DNA from: Paludibacteraceae bacterium
GTDB taxonomy: Bacteria; Bacteroidota; Bacteroidia; Bacteroidales; Paludibacteraceae
Assembly: GCA_017962085.1 (NCBI GenBank)
Contig: JAGCWA010000013.1
Coordinates: 39,535 to 103,534, forward strand
DNA: 64,000 bases
Direction of reading: 5' to 3'
The stretch's first letter is position 1. Every line of letters begins with the position of its first letter. The notes below the pieces were generated by a model. That model had not been told where the DNA came from. It saw only the letters and a program-made list of their open reading frames with translations, and did no database searches. Of this stretch, positions 23,161-30,251 are shown in pieces. The translations under genes and the position numbers were made by a program.

Positions 23161-23200
23161 TTAAAAATTAGGAGTTGAGAGTTATGAATAAAGAATTATG
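23161..23200. repeat. AT-rich dispersed repeat (AATTAGGAGTT type)
   Basis: The stretch contains AAAAATTAGGAGTTGAGAG and AAGAATTATGG. A similar sequence in the opposite orientation lies at 59134-59165, and related runs of AATTAAAAATT or GAATTTTGAATT at 32602-32627 and 33056-33085. They are short, degenerate and intergenic. Confidence 0.45.
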
Positions 23201-23261
23201 GGGACGAGGTATTATATTATTATAAAATATTAATATACAATATGTTATATTACATCAAAAC

Positions 23262-23295
23262 AACAAAACGGTGGAAGGCATGCACCCTCCACCGT
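23262..23295 (-). terminator. Terminator of the C10/lipoprotein operon
   Basis: Stem ACGGTGGA (23268-23275) and TCCACCGT (23288-23295), extended by GG/CC, followed on the minus strand by TTTGTTGTTTTG. It lies 22 bases after the stop of the last lipoprotein gene. No comparable hairpin was seen between the five upstream genes. Confidence 0.8.
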
Positions 23296-23317
23296 AGATT
23301 TCACAAGACGATATTTC

Positions 23318-24016
23318 TCACAACTCCACATGCACCGTCGACGACACCGACTTCCATCCATCGAAGGAGAAAGTGACGGTGAAGTTATGTATGCGGGAGA
23401 GGGTGGGAAGAGGAAGATAGATGCCAACTGGGCCTTCATCCCAAAGAGATTTCTCCTGCTGTTCATACTCGCTAAAAGGTTTTAAAACTTCGCAAAAAGG
23501 TTTTAAAATATGCTCTTGGGAATATATACCATTGTATCCATTCTGAATAAACAATGCGTACGATTCAGAATAGATCTTCGCAACGTCAATCAGTTCACTA
23601 CCGGCAAGATGTGTATCATCGAAATCAGCGTCCGAAACGACAGAAATAGCACTGACAGGGTATGCGATAGCAGGATACATATAGTTGGTTTTCCCATACC
23701 ATGCCGTGTCATGATACATCCTGACAAGGGAATCGTACAACGGATGGGGAGTTTGAGGATGGGTAGGACATTCTCCCGAATATACATATTCGCCCTTGAA
23801 GCAAAAGCCCATCACAATAGAATCCCCTTTCTTAGCAACTATATTCCAGGACAGATTCTCCATAGAATCCGGCAAAATATAACTTTGAAGATAATGCTTC
23901 GAAGGCCAAGTATATTCCGGGGTCTTTTTCCCTTCATCCTCTTCCTGACATGAAGCAAAGGCAATGACGGTTACCGTCGTCAACGCACCAACAATGATTT
24001 GAAAAAATTTATTCAT
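23318..24016 (-). CDS. C10-linked lipoprotein paralog 1
   Basis: A 232-residue lipoprotein: MNKFFQIIVGALTTVTVIAF then a lipobox ending ASC (Cys23). After an acidic linker it shares with paralogs 3 and 4 the blocks EYTWPSKHYLQSYILPDS, YSGECP, LYDSLVRMYHDTAW, YPVSAISVVSDADFDD, HLAGSELID and the end TFSFDGWKSVSSTVHVEL. No known domain recognised. It is the fifth and last gene after the C10 protease and is followed by a terminator. Placement behind a secreted protease suggests an inhibitor, propeptide-like partner or substrate; none is shown. Confidence 0.75.
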   Translation of the reverse strand: MNKFFQIIVGALTTVTVIAFASCQEEDEGKKTPEYTWPSKHYLQSYILPDSMENLSWNIVAKKGDSIVMGFCFKGEYVYSGECPTHPQTPHPLYDSLVRMYHDTAWYGKTNYMYPAIAYPVSAISVVSDADFDDTHLAGSELIDVAKIYSESYALFIQNGYNGIYSQEHILKPFCEVLKPFSEYEQQEKSLWDEGPVGIYLPLPTLSRIHNFTVTFSFDGWKSVSSTVHVEL

Positions 24017-24162
24017 AATTCATATCTTTCGTCAGCCAAACTACACGAATCTTTGCGTCATGTTGCATACTCCACGTCTGTCGCATAGCATCGCAACAGA
24101 TCCTTCAGCCAATCCGCGACATTAGACAGCCGCCCCTTGCCATAGAAAATCTCCAAACAATC
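24017..24162 (-). repeat. Duplicated spacer, copy A, with in-frame tail after paralog 2
   Basis: A 146-base spacer that is clearly homologous to 25525-25669. Directly after the TAG of paralog 2 the same frame continues for 34 codons (EIFYGKGRLSNVADWLKDLL) before a TGA, and the matching spacer keeps YGKGRLSTVADWLSDL in the same frame. This may be a decayed C-terminal module. Confidence 0.6.
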
Positions 24163-24810
24163 CTACAGTTCCACATGCACCGTCGACGACACCGACTTCC
24201 ACCCCTCGAAGGAGAAGGTGACGGTGAGGTTGTGTGTGCGGGAGAGGGTGGGAAGAGGAAGGTAGATGCCAATACCACCACACCAAAGATAACGTTCATA
24301 ATCAGAAAATAAAGAGAAAGGCTTCAACAACAGATCTTCTACATTCTCTCCTCGATAGCCAGACAACACGAAATTCCCCATCGAACAAACGCGAATATCC
24401 GCCAAATCGCAAAGTTCAGCTCCCGCAGGATGTTGCTCATCAAAATCAGCATCCGAGACCACTGACAAACATTTTACCGGATAAGGGCAGGCAGAAGGCA
24501 TCTCCCATGTGGCATAAAAATCATAACCCTCATCATGATTTAACGAGGCGAAGTAATCAAACCTACTATTCCCTTCTTTTTCCCATGAAACATGTTCTCC
24601 GTCAAACTCAGAAACAATGACAAATCCAGACGGGCGATCCGTCCATGTGGTAATATCCAATACCAACGTGTCAGGCACCACATATTTCACAACCGCATGT
24701 CCTGCCATTACATCCGCAGTGTCCGACTCTTTTTTTGAGTCACACCCCATTGTTGACAAGCATAAAGTCATCAACAAAAGGCATTTTATCAAGCATTTTA
24801 ATGATTTCAT
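24163..24810 (-). CDS. C10-linked lipoprotein paralog 2 (divergent)
   Basis: A 215-residue lipoprotein from ATG 24810, with signal MKSLKCLIKCLLLMTLCLS and a lipobox at TMGC (Cys23); an ATG at 24831 is also possible. The first two thirds differ strongly from the other three paralogs, yet YPVKCLSVVSDADFDEQHPAG is recognisable and the last ~35 residues (PLPTLSRTHNLTVTFSFEG onward) are almost identical to the others, also at DNA level. The pattern suggests gene conversion or exchange of the 3' end. Lies 36 bases after paralog 3. Confidence 0.75.
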   Translation of the reverse strand: MKSLKCLIKCLLLMTLCLSTMGCDSKKESDTADVMAGHAVVKYVVPDTLVLDITTWTDRPSGFVIVSEFDGEHVSWEKEGNSRFDYFASLNHDEGYDFYATWEMPSACPYPVKCLSVVSDADFDEQHPAGAELCDLADIRVCSMGNFVLSGYRGENVEDLLLKPFSLFSDYERYLWCGGIGIYLPLPTLSRTHNLTVTFSFEGWKSVSSTVHVEL

Positions 24811-24846
24811 AATCTCATCTGCACTAAACATCTAAAAAATTCCGAC

Positions 24847-25524
24847 TCACAACTCCACATGCACCGTCGACGACACCGACTTCCACCCCTCGAAGGAGAA
24901 GGTGACGGTGAAGTTGTGCGTGCGGGAAAGAGTGGGAAGAGGAAGATGGATACCAACCGCACCACACCAAAGGCAACGCTCATTCTGCGTGAATTTTGAA
25001 AAGGGTTGTCTTATACTCTTAAAATGCTCATCATCATACGGGTATCCATTCAGCACAAAATCGCCACGCGAAAGAGCATCAACACACGCAATATCAATCA
25101 GTTCACTACCAGCAAGATGTGCATCATCAAAATCGGCGTCCGAAACGACAGAAATAGCACTGACAGGATATGCGACAGGAGGATACCTGTAATTGGTCGT
25201 TCCACGCCACGCCGTATCATGATACATTCTGACCAGGGAATCATACAATGGGTGAGGAGAATGAGGATTGGTAGGACACTCTCCCGAGTATACGGATTCA
25301 CCCTCGAAACAAAAGCCCATCGCAATAGAATCTCTTTCCTTAGTGACTATATCCCAGGATAGATTCGACAAAGAATCCGGCAAAATATAACTTTGGTTAA
25401 AATGTTTCGAAGGCCATTCGTATTCCGGAGTCTGTTTTCCTTCATCCTCATCCCGACATGAAGCAAAGGCAATGACGGCTACCGTCGTCATCGCACCAAC
25501 AATGATTTGAAAAATTTTATTCAT
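24847..25524 (-). CDS. C10-linked lipoprotein paralog 3
   Basis: A 225-residue lipoprotein very close to paralogs 1 and 4: signal MNKIFQIIVGAMTTVAVIAF, lipobox ASC (Cys23), then EYEWPSKHFNQSYILPDS, YSGECPTNPHSPHPLYDSL, VSDADFDDAHLAGSELID and the common end WKSVSSTVHVEL. The segment between (about residues 160-190) differs most, including loss of the NGYNG-Y-Q block seen in 1 and 4. It is separated from paralog 4 by a 145-base duplicated spacer and from paralog 2 by a short gap. Confidence 0.75.
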   Translation of the reverse strand: MNKIFQIIVGAMTTVAVIAFASCRDEDEGKQTPEYEWPSKHFNQSYILPDSLSNLSWDIVTKERDSIAMGFCFEGESVYSGECPTNPHSPHPLYDSLVRMYHDTAWRGTTNYRYPPVAYPVSAISVVSDADFDDAHLAGSELIDIACVDALSRGDFVLNGYPYDDEHFKSIRQPFSKFTQNERCLWCGAVGIHLPLPTLSRTHNFTVTFSFEGWKSVSSTVHVEL

Positions 25525-25669
25525 AATACATTTTTTTCGTCAACCAAACTACACGAATCCTTGCGTCATATCGCAAGCGCCACGTCTGTCGATAACGCCA
25601 CTACAAATCACTCAGCCAATCCGCGACAGTAGAGAGCCGCCCCTTGCCATAGAAAATCTCCAAACAATC
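25525..25669 (-). repeat. Duplicated spacer, copy B
   Basis: Homologous to 24017-24162 over its whole length. Spacing between equivalent points of the two copies is about 1508 bases, equal to the distance between paralogs 1 and 3, which defines a two-gene tandem duplication unit. The frame of paralog 4 continues past its TAG for about 23 codons here. Confidence 0.65.
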
Positions 25670-26347
25670 CTACAATTCCACATGCACCGTCGACGACACC
25701 GACTTCCACCCCTCAAAGGAGAAGGTGACAGTGAAGTTGTGCGTGCGGGAGAGGGTTGGAAGAGGGAAGTAGATGCCAACACTAGCGCCATTCCAAAGAG
25801 ACCTCTCCTGTTGCGTATATTCACAAAAGGGTTTTAAAAAATCTTCTTGAGGATATCTACCATTGTATCCATTTAGCACAAACAATGCATACGATCCAGA
25901 ATAGATATTCGCAATGTCAATCAGTTCACTACCGGCAAGATGTGCATCATCGAAATCAGCGTCCGAAACGACAGAAATAGCACTGACAGGGTATGCGATA
26001 GCAGGATACATATAGTTAGTTTTTCCACGCCACGCCGTGTCATGATACATCTTAACAAGGGAGTCGTACAACGGATGGGGAGGTTGAGGATCGGCAGGAC
26101 ATTCTCCCGAGCATATGGATTCGCCCCCCAACCCGAATCCCAACAAGAAAGAATCTTTCTTAATCTTAGAAAGATAATCCCAAGAAGGATCTATCAAAGA
26201 ATCCGGCAAAATATATCTTTGAAGATAATGCTTCGAAGGCCAAGTATATTCCGGAGTTCCTCCCCCATCCTCTTCCTGACATGAAGCAAAGGCAATGACG
26301 GCTACCGTCGTCAACGCACCAATAATGATTTGAAAAATTTTATTCAT
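25670..26347 (-). CDS. C10-linked lipoprotein paralog 4
   Basis: A 225-residue lipoprotein, first of the four in transcription order and 18 bases after the C10 protease gene. Signal MNKIFQIIIGALTTVAVIAF and lipobox ASC (Cys23). It shares WPSKHYLQRYILPDSL, SGECPADPQPPHPLYDSL, TNYMYPAIAYPVSAISVVSD and the common C terminus with paralogs 1 and 3. Residues ~50-70 (DYLSKIKKDSFLLGFGLGGE) are its most distinct part. No domain recognised. Function unknown; context suggests partnership with the protease. Confidence 0.75.
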   Translation of the reverse strand: MNKIFQIIIGALTTVAVIAFASCQEEDGGGTPEYTWPSKHYLQRYILPDSLIDPSWDYLSKIKKDSFLLGFGLGGESICSGECPADPQPPHPLYDSLVKMYHDTAWRGKTNYMYPAIAYPVSAISVVSDADFDDAHLAGSELIDIANIYSGSYALFVLNGYNGRYPQEDFLKPFCEYTQQERSLWNGASVGIYFPLPTLSRTHNFTVTFSFEGWKSVSSTVHVEL

Positions 26348-26365
26348 AATTCATCTTTTTTAAGA

Positions 26366-27817
26366 TTAACGATAACATGGAAGCATGGTTACTTTATATT
26401 GATAATTGCTTTCAGCCCAATTAATACCCCAGTTGTCAAAATCACCTTCCCTAGTATCAAAACATCCTTCAGCGAAATATCCGTTGTTAGATCCGCCCCA
26501 TCCCCAATTGATGTGGAGATACGAATCCCTCAAAACTGTTTTCACATAGCTCTCACTGTAATAGCCCGTACTAGTGTCAACAACATAGGTGTAATAGTCC
26601 GCCATCATGGCTTTGTATCCATCCACCACCCATGTGTGTCCTCCCGAATAACTGTACTTCCAAAAGCCACCTTTTCTAACCGAATATCCTCCCATTATCA
26701 CAGGCTTTCGATTGTTCAAATACATCCTTATCCTCGCATAATTATAATCAGACACCACACAATTGAGATAGCCTGCCGTCTTCAGATAATCTACGGCATA
26801 CTCGTCACTAGTGCCGCTACTACCACACTGCCAGTTCATACCTATGCGTAAACCAATCTCATACAAAAGTTTACTCACTTGATCCTTATACGATTGTTGT
26901 CTTAAGCTATCAGCATCTTTTTCCTTTGTGATTTCATCCCAATCAGGACGCACCCCTTCATATCCCCTACTTGTTCTCCTCATAAGACTTGTAGGGTATT
27001 TGTAATAGGCCATCAATTGACCTATCGCCACCGCCCAACATCCAGCAGGAGCATGTTCACTCGGATTATCGGGACATTCCTTCATCAAATTATTGTATGG
27101 ATTACCACTCTGTGCCCATTCCGTCAAAAGCAATGGGTCAACCTTAACCTCCTCCCGCCAATAGTAATAACTTCCTGACATTCTCTTCCTAAGGGTTGTT
27201 TCTTCACAAACGTCTTCCTTCATTTTTTGTTTCGCCACCTCCAGCAACGAATCCTTCTCCGCTTCGAACTTCATAATGGAGTTTCGCATGAAGACCTGCG
27301 CATTATCCAGGAAAATAGCAAGGCCGGGGTTATCCGTATCCTCCCCCAGAGTCCCATTATCCACGCAAGCTAAAATCGGACATCCCACACGATCGTCCGC
27401 ACAAATAATAGCGAATCCCGCACTGTCCGCAAAGTTGCAGACGTAAGCCAATGTGTCAGGGATGGCGACCACCTCGCCAGAGCCAGAGCGCAAGGTCGTC
27501 TCATCGGAGCGCAACACACGCACCTCCTCGATTTGACGCACCCTCCCCGATTTGAGTCCTTTACCTTCTCCAGCGAATAGGGAGGCCGCATCGAGCGCCA
27601 ACTCCCTCGCCTCGTCCATACCCATCGTGTGGTTGGAGGAAAACAAAGCCTTGTAGTTCAAGGAAGGCTCCTCTTTCTGTTCCTGCTGAGGACTGGAGGA
27701 GTCATCCCGGACCTCCTCCACATCATCCGTCTCACACGACATAAACTGAGCCACTGCGACTATCCCAATAGCACACAGCAACTTACGCAAACATAGATCT
27801 TTTTCATTGAATAACAT
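26366..27817 (-). CDS. C10 (streptopain-like) cysteine protease, lipoprotein
   Basis: A 483-residue lipoprotein from ATG 27817 (MLFNEKDLCLRKLLCAIGIV; lipobox FMSC, Cys28). Residues ~50-190 form a propeptide with the Spi/I69-like block YVCNFADSAGFAIICADDRV. The mature protease shows the catalytic cysteine in HAPAGCWAVAIGQLMAYY (C260), the histidine in YSGGHTWVVDGYKA (H394) and NWGWGGSNNGYF, the order expected for peptidase family C10 (SpeB, PrtT, Bacteroides Bfp). No T9SS tail, so it should be anchored by lipid. Bacteroides C10 genes can be linked to inhibitor genes; here four lipoprotein genes follow on the same strand. Confidence 0.9.
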   Translation of the reverse strand: MLFNEKDLCLRKLLCAIGIVAVAQFMSCETDDVEEVRDDSSSPQQEQKEEPSLNYKALFSSNHTMGMDEARELALDAASLFAGEGKGLKSGRVRQIEEVRVLRSDETTLRSGSGEVVAIPDTLAYVCNFADSAGFAIICADDRVGCPILACVDNGTLGEDTDNPGLAIFLDNAQVFMRNSIMKFEAEKDSLLEVAKQKMKEDVCEETTLRKRMSGSYYYWREEVKVDPLLLTEWAQSGNPYNNLMKECPDNPSEHAPAGCWAVAIGQLMAYYKYPTSLMRRTSRGYEGVRPDWDEITKEKDADSLRQQSYKDQVSKLLYEIGLRIGMNWQCGSSGTSDEYAVDYLKTAGYLNCVVSDYNYARIRMYLNNRKPVIMGGYSVRKGGFWKYSYSGGHTWVVDGYKAMMADYYTYVVDTSTGYYSESYVKTVLRDSYLHINWGWGGSNNGYFAEGCFDTREGDFDNWGINWAESNYQYKVTMLPCYR

Positions 27818-27933
27818 AATAAAAATTTTTAAGTGTTTAAAAATAGAAAATTCAAAATCCATGGCAGCCTTTTTCCCTCAACCACAAATATTTAAATCTT
27901 CAGAAAATACTCACATTATCGAACTCGACACGG

Positions 27934-27941
27934 CAAATATA
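27934..27941 (-). promoter_or_regulatory. -7 promoter box (TATATTTG) for the C10 operon
   Basis: Exact TAnnTTTG match 117 bases upstream of ATG 27817, giving a long leader. The remainder of the 27818-28101 gap is AT-rich and shows no gene. Confidence 0.5.
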
Positions 27942-28101
27942 TGGATTATTTTTAATTACAACAAAATATTTAACATAAATCGCACGTAAAACTAACGCAA
28001 TATTATTCGCCAACCTTACAAGGGGATGCATGTTGAACAAAACTTCCCAAATTTCATCATTAAAGCATCATGGGGAATCCTAATTCAGAGTTGTTTAGCC
28101 C

Positions 28102-28142
28102 AAGAAGGCGGGCATTTCTCTTCATGAAACACCCGCCTTCTT
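28102..28142 (-). terminator. Terminator-like hairpin
   Basis: Perfect 11-base stem AAGAAGGCGGG (28102-28112) and CCCGCCTTCTT (28132-28142), 24 bases after the stop of the gene at 28167. The T tract is short. Confidence 0.7.
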
Positions 28143-28166
28143 CCATTTCACAGAGAGGTAGCAGCA

Positions 28167-28712
28167 TTAAAAATCATCCTCTATTTTTTTCTCAAAATCA
28201 CTCTTGATATTCTTTAATGTTTGTTTTTGTCTCTCCAATTTCTTACTTCTGATTTCAACATCTCTCTGTTGATTGTTCACATACTGTATCCTAACTTTCG
28301 TAATGCCGTTCTCCACAACTTTCTCCAGCATACCTGGTTCAAAATTATACAAACATACGCTATGATATGTTGGATCTCCTCCTGACTTACTGTAAATCGT
28401 CTTTTTCAACTGGGCCACAGGAGCACGAAACAACTTAAGGGTCTCCTCATTACCAAGTTTCAGCATCAAAACCCCATCCTCCGGATAAGAGACATAATCA
28501 CGCATACGGTCCTCAACCAAAGAGAAAGAATAGATGGTGTCGAAATCCACGACGGAACGTTGGATGGCAAATTTAGCCAACAAATCCAGGCTGATCATCC
28601 TTGAAACCGCAGTTTGTTCAGCTGCCTTATCCCTTCCATCAACCGTATACTCAGCAAAAGCACTTGTCGCACACAAAAAAAGCGACATCATTCCTAAAAA
28701 TAAATTCTTCAT
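28167..28712 (-). CDS. Secreted protein of unknown function
   Basis: A 181-residue protein with a signal peptide (MKNLFLGMMSLFLCATSAFA). The mature part starts with YTVDGRDKAAEQ, has a central strand-rich region (SYPEDGVLMLKLGNEE, PTYHSVCLYNFEPGML) and a basic, helical C terminus with SKKLERQKQTLKNIKSDFEK. I do not recognise a family. It lies 26 bases after the LRR gene on the same strand and ends at a hairpin, so the two form a small operon. Confidence 0.65.
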   Translation of the reverse strand: MKNLFLGMMSLFLCATSAFAEYTVDGRDKAAEQTAVSRMISLDLLAKFAIQRSVVDFDTIYSFSLVEDRMRDYVSYPEDGVLMLKLGNEETLKLFRAPVAQLKKTIYSKSGGDPTYHSVCLYNFEPGMLEKVVENGITKVRIQYVNNQQRDVEIRSKKLERQKQTLKNIKSDFEKKIEDDF

Positions 28713-28738
28713 GTTTTTATTCGAATTATTTGTTATAA

Positions 28739-30004
28739 CTATTTCATTTCAACATTCAAATCGGGACAATCGGAAAATGAGTTTTCCGAAAAAGCCGAAA
28801 AGCCCTTTGGAAGGACCAATTTCTTCAAACCTTTACATCCGGAGAAAGCATAATCGGCAATCTGCTTCACAGAGGCAGGCAAGACAAATTCATCAGACTC
28901 CTTTCCTGGAGGGAAACGCAACAACTTCGTCTTGTCCTTATTGTAAAGCACACCATCAACGGAAGTATACTTGTTGTTTGCTGGATCAACAGATATTTTT
29001 TTCAGGCATTTCCAACCGACATAGTTTTCTGCGTATTCTATCCCCTCCACAACAGTTTTAGGCACAACCAATTCCTCTATCGATGTTCCCACAAAAGCAT
29101 TCGGGTTAACGAAGGATACTGCAGGCCCCCAAGAAATGGATTTCAACTTGCCACAATTCTTAAACATCTTGGCAGGAACGCTTTTCAAATTGAAATTATC
29201 CACGGACTCCAAGTTCTCACACAATTCAAACATACTTTCTCCTCCACCAAACGAGCAACCCTTCAAATCCACTTTCTTTAATCCACTGCACTTTGAAAAC
29301 GCACCATTCCACACATAATCAACAGAACCAGGAATGGCAATTTCCTTGATGGAACTACATCCAGAAAATGACTCCGCTCCGATTTTCTTCACTACGGAAG
29401 GCAGTATCACATCAGACCATGAGGAACAATCCTTGAAGGCCTCATCATCAATATCCACCACATAAGAAGGAATTTTAAAATCCGTCAAGTTTGCGCACCC
29501 AGAAAAAGAACCATTACCAATCTCTTTCACAGTAAACGGCAAAGATACGCTTTTCAATGTTTTACAATTTTTGAAGGTGCTTAATTCAATCATCGAGATG
29601 CCCTGCGGCACCACTATGGCATCCAAGCTCTCACATCCTTCAAAAGCAGAAAAACCAATTTTTTTCACAGACGAAGGAAGATTGATCTTCTTCAACCTAA
29701 CACAACCTCTAAACGATTCACTTTCAATCTTTGTAACGCTGGACGGCAACACAACCTCAGTAACGCCTCGACAATCCTTGAACGGATGGTACAGCAAACA
29801 ACCTACCCCCGTCACAGGATATTCTTGGCCTCCCAAACGTGTCTTTTCCGGCACTTCCACTTTCCCACTCATTTGCTGCGGACACTTGGAAACACAAGCC
29901 TCCGCCCCTTCGAGCAAATATTGCAACTTATAAAAACCCGATTGAGCTTGCACCAATAAGACCGCACCTAAAAGGAACGACAAAAACAATAATAATTTTT
30001 TCAT
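28739..30004 (-). CDS. BspA-type leucine-rich repeat secreted protein
   Basis: A 421-residue protein from ATG 30004 (MKKLLLFLSFLLGAVLLVQA signal). Residues ~65-415 contain about a dozen LRR_5 repeats of ~23 residues with the pattern LPSSVTKIESESFRGCVRLK. An island near 330-365 (NNKYTSVDGVLYNKDKTKLL) is the usual BspA-family insertion before the last repeats. Such proteins are surface or secreted binding proteins in Bacteroidota and in Treponema. No T9SS tail and no lipobox are visible, so localisation is unclear. Cotranscribed with the secreted protein at 28167. Confidence 0.85.
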   Translation of the reverse strand: MKKLLLFLSFLLGAVLLVQAQSGFYKLQYLLEGAEACVSKCPQQMSGKVEVPEKTRLGGQEYPVTGVGCLLYHPFKDCRGVTEVVLPSSVTKIESESFRGCVRLKKINLPSSVKKIGFSAFEGCESLDAIVVPQGISMIELSTFKNCKTLKSVSLPFTVKEIGNGSFSGCANLTDFKIPSYVVDIDDEAFKDCSSWSDVILPSVVKKIGAESFSGCSSIKEIAIPGSVDYVWNGAFSKCSGLKKVDLKGCSFGGGESMFELCENLESVDNFNLKSVPAKMFKNCGKLKSISWGPAVSFVNPNAFVGTSIEELVVPKTVVEGIEYAENYVGWKCLKKISVDPANNKYTSVDGVLYNKDKTKLLRFPPGKESDEFVLPASVKQIADYAFSGCKGLKKLVLPKGFSAFSENSFSDCPDLNVEMK

Positions 30005-30066
30005 CTTCTCACCACTCAAAAACATAGTTGTTTATTTAAAATTAACACATATTCATTTCCCGAACA

Positions 30067-30074
30067 CAAAATTA
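30067..30074 (-). promoter_or_regulatory. -7 promoter box (TAATTTTG) for the LRR gene
   Basis: Exact TAnnTTTG match 63 bases upstream of ATG 30004. A near match TACCTTCG for hisS lies about 30 bases before 30252 on the other strand. Confidence 0.45.
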
Positions 30075-30251
30075 CAAAAAAACGAATAAATAATACACAA
30101 AAACGAAGGAAAAGTGAAAAAATAATGCTAATTATATAAATATCAACAAATTATCAAACGAATCATCATCCATTCCATATAAAATCATCCACACAATCCC
30201 GATTCAATATAAAAGTATTACCTTCGCGGTCAGAAACAAAACATAAACATC

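Follow-up and report, generated by a model that had tools for sequence, protein, structure and literature searches.

Why would the gene of a single protease be followed by four genes for related lipoproteins? The question is raised by a five-gene array in the stretch of DNA analysed here, referred to as the window, which covers 64,000 nucleotides of a Paludibacteraceae bacterium (assembly GCA_017962085.1, contig JAGCWA010000013.1, positions 39,535 to 103,534). In our numbering the genome assembly is G000, with 59 contigs, and the window's own contig is C48. The array encodes a lipid-anchored cysteine protease of peptidase family C10 and four lipoproteins that we call LIP1 to LIP4; the name LIP and the type letters A, B, C and D are labels of this analysis. 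Comparison of related genomes indicates that the catalytic domain of the protease and the LIP adjoining it are exchanged by recombination. Our preferred explanation, to which we give a probability of roughly 0.55, is that the locus is a polymorphic envelope protease-immunity system, with the LIPs as cognate inhibitors and the array as a poly-immunity bank. The parts of the array, in window coordinates, are the following.

26366..27862, minus strand: C10 cysteine protease, predicted lipoprotein zymogen of catalytic type A, with its start at ATG 27862 or 27817
27223..27862, minus strand: constant 5' part of the protease gene (signal peptide, lipid anchor, propeptide)
26366..27127, minus strand: variable part of the protease gene, which is the catalytic domain
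25670..26347, minus strand: LIP1, lipoprotein of type A, adjoining the protease
25525..25669, minus strand: spacer between LIP1 and LIP2
24847..25524, minus strand: LIP2, lipoprotein of 'type B'
24163..24831 (alternative ATG 24810), minus strand: LIP3, lipoprotein of type C
24017..24162, minus strand: spacer between LIP3 and LIP4
23318..24016, minus strand: LIP4, lipoprotein of type A

The array lies at a chromosomal site, from phoH/purC to hisS, that is shared by six species, those of the window and of genomes G316, G311, G315, G313 and G323 (in G315 the contig covers just the hisS side). Nucleotide identity of five flanking genes is 90-99%. The protease at this site is of catalytic type A in the window, G316 and G311, of type C in G313 and G323, and of type D in G315. 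In five comparisons between types, nucleotide identity along the protease gene was 84-100% in each of the six initial steps of 30 codons (together ca. 540 base pairs, bp), 60-88% in the seventh step and 36-66% over the remainder. The catalytic part was 67-100% identical in three comparisons within a type. At the protein level, catalytic domains of different types share 35-43% identity. The between-type synonymous divergence (dS) was 0.17-0.31 for the propeptide and at least 1.9, or not calculable, for the catalytic domain. Saturated silent sites are not expected from selection on amino acids by itself, and the catalytic domain has therefore been replaced.

The tree of the flanking genes paired G311 with G313 (support 0.93) and G315 with G323 (support 0.99, with G315 represented by two genes only), and each pair holds two protease types. 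The protease types contradict this tree, so that in genus g1 the catalytic domain and the adjoining LIP have been exchanged by recombination at the shared site. The G+C content is 0.42 for the catalytic part and 0.43-0.46 for the LIPs, against 0.50 for the constant part of the protease and 0.55-0.56 for phoH and hisS. A preliminary description of the array, made from this one sequence, could not have revealed such an allelic exchange.

At the shared site, the type of the first LIP, which adjoins the protease, switches together with that of the catalytic domain. LIP1 agrees in type with its protease and is 75-77% identical in its variable part to its counterparts in first place at the other two type-A loci. 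Over eight pairs of protease and first LIP in genus g1, catalytic and LIP distances correlated with r = 0.93 (p = 0.0007); the correlation between propeptide and LIP was 0.45 (p = 0.035), and the partial correlation of catalytic domain and LIP given the propeptide was 0.93 (p = 0.0008). For the six shared-site loci r was 0.97 with p = 0.013, near the best possible value of 1/60, which is the chance of such a match of protease and LIP types given the types as distributed. With all 23 pairs r was 0.91, to which genus structure contributes. The set of 23 leaves out proteases that are frame-split (one unit of L064, L066, L071, L090) or cut at a contig edge (the other unit of L064, L074, L076), and remnants (L048, L049, L050, L052, L058, L061, L072, one unit of L086). 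Identity over the C-terminal 27 residues of the LIPs is 85-100% among types A and C and a fourth locus (G311b), and 48-60% for the LIP of G322. From these patterns we infer co-specificity of LIP and protease.

The LIPs further downstream do not all agree in type with the protease. The window holds LIPs of types A, B, C and A behind a type-A protease, G315 holds D, B and a cut C behind a type-D protease, and G313 holds two LIPs of type C behind a type-C protease. LIP2 is 84% identical to the second LIP of G315. The type-C LIP3, although encoded with a type-A protease, shares 83-89% identity with the LIPs that directly follow type-C proteases in G313 and G323, and 95% with two LIPs further along their arrays, the second of G313 and the third (cut) of G315. 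Over 715 bases, LIP4 and the first LIP of G316 are 98.9% identical in nucleotides. A type-C protease was not found in the window's own genome, whose second protease stops at a contig start before its catalytic domain. LIPs also occur where no intact protease of this kind is present: genomes G314 (88% complete), G317 and G325 have two, two and three LIPs, respectively, with a 3' remnant as the only trace of such a protease. Pairwise ratios of nonsynonymous to synonymous divergence (dN/dS) of 0.17-0.39 within the two groups formed by these LIPs indicate that they are under purifying selection.

The protease matched the Pfam models Peptidase_C10 with 108.4 bits (cut-off 26) and Inhibitor_I69 with 39.4 bits (cut-off 25), which places it in family C10, and proteolytic activity is predicted. 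The codons for the lipobox Cys (27734-27736) and for the catalytic Cys (27038-27040), His (26636-26638) and Asn (26507-26509) are all intact. This agrees with the preliminary description, which had proposed a lipid-anchored streptopain-like protease with a propeptide and intact Cys and His. Streptopain chains align weakly with the protease, covering the stretches that bear Cys and Asn and leaving out that of His. Catalytic Cys, His and Asn and an NWGWGG region are present in the window protease and in ten of ten genus-g1 proteases of the same kind; of the 23 LIP-paired proteases, all have Cys and His and 22 have Asn. The second protease of this kind in the window's genome is represented by its 5' part at positions 1-582 of C48 (L154), where it runs off the contig start, and its propeptide is closest to type D (67%). 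A fifth LIP of this genome begins contig C18 (positions 51-785, L011) and is 56% identical to the type-D LIP. The C48-start protease and the C18-start LIP may belong to one locus.

Linkage, the type switch at one site, co-variation, exchange, the LIPs without an intact protease and purifying selection were read from sequences. Surface location, release, inhibition and protection from neighbours are the steps that the proposed mechanism would add. The protease would start as a lipid-anchored zymogen, with anchor and propeptide both in the constant N-terminal part. Since a cut behind the propeptide would remove the lipid together with it, the catalytic domain would be set free. Each catalytic type would have a cognate lipoprotein, in genus g1 encoded directly behind it, that is held at the membrane and blocks the enzyme. 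The pair would be replaced as a cassette by recombination in the constant 5' part of the protease gene and, for types A and C, in the constant 3' end of the LIP gene. LIPs of other types would accumulate downstream and guard against protease types released by neighbours, and for this reason they would be kept where the cell's own protease is lost.

By analogy, the locus would work like the C10-inhibitor pairs of Bacteroides, the potempins and the polymorphic toxins. C10 proteases of Bacteroides fragilis and B. thetaiotaomicron are co-transcribed with staphostatin-like inhibitors of 116-138 residues, according to excerpts of PMC2873492 and PMC3462683. As in the window, a lipid-anchored C10 zymogen (Bfp, Btp) there adjoins a gene, up- or downstream, for an exported, partly lipidated and mainly beta protein (Bfi, Bti); the LIPs differ in their length of 215-232 residues, in being arrayed and in their exchanged types, with Bfi and Bti compared by description. 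For the C10 protease SpeB of Streptococcus pyogenes the adjoining inhibitor gene encodes Spi, a propeptide analogue (excerpts of PMC3462683 and PMC2873492), whereas the LIPs have no profile similarity to the propeptide.

The KLIKK proteases are not members of C10. Beside them, Tannerella forsythia carries lipoprotein inhibitor genes for the potempins, and sequence coverage of the two partners correlates with 0.80 across genomes (excerpt of PMC7296668). The potempins likewise adjoin their proteases and differ in that they are called small lipoproteins there, and the excerpt mentions neither tandem arrays nor an exchange of domains; this comparison too is by description. Polymorphic toxin systems, as outlined in parts of PMC3482391, show C-terminal domain exchange, papain-like toxin domains, poly-immunity loci and a possible protease-inhibitor immunity family, Imm35. 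They share with our locus a constant N-terminal part with an exchanged C-terminal enzyme domain (seen at six loci, in g1 and not in g27) and a neighbouring gene that varies with the enzyme domain (the eight g1 pairs above). Homogeneous poly-immunity loci in the same source consist of tandem paralogous immunity genes that differ in specificity, and the window array consists, by its sequence, of tandem paralogues of differing type. The difference is that a single enzyme family with propeptide and lipid anchor is used here, on which Pfam detected no toxin-delivery domain. C10-inhibitor pairs, potempins and poly-immunity loci are each already known, separately; the searches made of open-licence papers in PubMed Central (PMC) turned up no polymorphic C10-lipoprotein locus.

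The main rival is self-restraint without any role for neighbours, an account that we consider possible though on balance improbable. As with the potempins, Bfi/Bti and Spi, the LIPs would keep the protease of their own cell inhibited up to its release, additional copies would serve dosage, and the variety of catalytic domains would come from substrates or host inhibitors. The known C10-inhibitor and KLIKK-potempin pairs are explained in this manner in the excerpts cited above, the first LIP agrees in type with its protease, and LIP1 and LIP4 are both of type A. The foreign-type LIPs beside the proteases of the window and G315 do not fit this account, nor does purifying selection on LIPs in the three genomes without an intact protease of the same kind. 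Such LIPs could be transient leftovers, or could act on other C10 proteases, which G314, G317 and G325 do carry.

A profile of the four window LIPs was run over 358 genomes of the family; it matched 34 of them, and the C10 model matched 254. The census of loci comprised 57 stretches around LIP hits, minus two, plus the window and contig C18, again 57; the two outside it are weak hits (G009:C19 and G335:C24, stretches L095 and L097) that the profile did not recover. A C10 match, scored by tblastn with 30 proteases, adjoins a LIP in 34 of the 57 stretches. The protease is whole in 25 of these (four of them frame-split), lies at a contig edge in two and is a 3' remnant only in seven. By group, the two genes adjoin in 29 of 38 stretches in the core genera g1, g22 and g27 and in 5 of 19 elsewhere. 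The link asserted in the preliminary description is hence real, above all in the core genera, and it is incomplete, with LIP relatives in the remaining 23 stretches lacking a C10 match; homologues away from C10 genes, which the preliminary description had named as evidence against its reading, do in part occur. In g1 and g22 the protease gene precedes the LIP, and in most g27 loci the order is the reverse. A wider profile of 19 LIPs, run over 295 genomes of the order, gave 24 places outside the window's own genome, of which nine, from four genomes, had a C10 match in the fetched locus (any strand, any distance); all nine belonged to the 16 places whose E was below 1e-6. With LIP1 as query, five loci were found in metagenome assemblies of Paludibacteraceae and Bacteroidales, including one from sheep rumen.

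Some loci of the survey are of separate interest. Protease and LIP are both frame-split at L071 (G324) and at L090 (G329). A LIP fragment of 62 residues lies beside stops at L045 (G313:C7, about 110331-110541), on the same contig as an intact C10-LIP locus. Another arrangement of a protease with tandem paralogues, in the same genus, occurs at L108, L110 and L111. The C10 protease there is a different one, with frames of 630-695 residues, and behind it stand between one and three copies of a paralogue of about 330 residues, whose C-terminus we take, from its look, to resemble a type IX secretion signal.

The LIPs themselves are paralogous, as was first proposed, with LIP1, LIP2 and LIP4 mutually 71-79% identical and LIP3 ca. 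40-44% identical to them. The preliminary description could not match the set and called known Bacteroides inhibitors much shorter; no match above cut-off was obtained in Pfam or NCBIfam, and LIP1 had no match in PDB by sequence. A predicted model of LIP1, built from 11 sequences (mean predicted local distance difference test score, pLDDT, 68; predicted template modelling score, pTM, 0.65), is mostly beta and suggests a beta-sandwich. The structure-based search suggested earlier was run with this model and returned generic matches, with no Bfi, Bti or staphostatin among those listed, an absence that carries no weight. Kinship with the protease propeptide, as in Spi-type (I69) inhibitors, was rejected, since two LIP profiles reached hhalign probabilities of 0.0 and 0.1. 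Of the six residues that follow the lipid Cys, at least two are acidic in 40 of 65 LIPs, a rough guide because the automatic choice of Cys was partly wrong; this resembles the surface-export signal of Bacteroidetes described in part of PMC5080379. DUF5034 (PF16437), which appears in an expression table in PMC10434189 (excerpt), matched 4 of 19 LIP relatives weakly (E up to 0.1, best 1.9e-5) and none of the window LIPs.

The roles first considered for the LIPs were inhibitor, immunity protein, chaperone and propeptide partner. Among these, an inhibitor or immunity role fits the sequence patterns best, and a relationship to the propeptide is unsupported. The LIPs could alternatively act at the surface in a function of their own, such as binding or antigenic variation, that has nothing to do with the protease, and be co-exchanged with it only through linkage. 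The generic beta-sandwich model, solitary LIPs beside other genes and the distant kinship to DUF5034, whose model found seven loci of which none has a C10 match, are compatible with this. We nevertheless consider it very unlikely, given that the link to one protease family recurs in several genera and families and with either gene in front. A chaperone or export partner that folds or carries its catalytic domain, as foldases do for some lipases, would explain the co-variation and the close gene coupling in either order, but is very improbable because three genomes hold LIPs under purifying selection without an intact protease of the same kind, and also in view of the foreign-type LIPs in the arrays and of two such proteases that lack an adjoining LIP though their genomes hold LIPs elsewhere.

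Several observations weigh against the protease-immunity explanation as well. No mosaic is seen in genus g27 because propeptide, catalytic domain and LIP all co-vary there (catalytic domain and propeptide with r = 0.94). At the shared site types A and C alone are replicated, and the type-D LIP lacks the constant 3' end (26-33% identity over the last 27 residues). Tight linkage alone could yield the co-variation of LIP and catalytic type. Diversifying selection was not shown, whole-gene dN/dS being below 1 throughout. The type of the second protease in the window's genome is unreadable, as it is cut before the catalytic domain. The two proteases without an adjoining LIP are L109 in G323 and L112 in G316. 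Of the 23 LIP stretches without a C10 match, 14 are among the 19 outside the core genera; the upstream side is off the contig in four of the 23 and extends just 0.3-1.1 kilobases (kb) in four more, and one is a 62-residue LIP fragment.

The five genes, in the order protease, LIP1, LIP2, LIP3, LIP4, are separated by gaps of 18, 145, 15 (or 36) and 146 bp. They likely form one operon, for which co-transcription is predicted. Two putative signals bound the array.

27934..27964, minus strand: Bacteroidetes-type promoter-like site 5' of the protease, a pattern match
23268..23295, minus strand: intrinsic terminator with a 12-pair stem (7 G-C) and a T-rich tail

The terminator is the sole strong intergenic one on the minus strand, in agreement with the preliminary description. 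Weak terminator-like sites are uninformative, because 19 were found and 10.6 are expected from shuffling. The Bacteroidetes-type promoter pattern is TTG-N17-25-TAnnTTTG. Its single full minus-strand match in 23200-28200 is the site listed, with ca. 0.6 matches expected per 5 kb. A sigma-70-type match lies at 25543-25514, where LIP2 begins. The two spacers of ca. 146 bp are duplicates with 86% identity and are longer than a plain gap; related spacers between LIPs occur in G315 and G316. Upstream of the array, window positions 28043-30195 (ca. 2.15 kb) hold two genes, one leucine-rich-repeat-like by eye. This segment is present in the window and G311 and absent from the shared site in G316, G315, G313 and G323.

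A more specific version of the protease-immunity explanation is an interbacterial weapon. An anchored zymogen would shed polymorphic C10 proteases, type-specific surface lipoproteins would neutralize them, species would exchange the cassette at a fixed site, and balancing selection would maintain a bank of immunity genes of foreign type. We propose this tentatively, as a possibility well short of even odds. Inhibitor specificity could be studied on the natural pairs of the locus, putatively cognate and non-cognate, and a lipoprotein family that is distantly DUF5034-like gains a testable function. If the protease-immunity explanation is true, it would join bacterial protease-inhibitor pairs with polymorphic toxins, and would show that envelope proteases of the Bacteroidales can be objects of conflict between strains.

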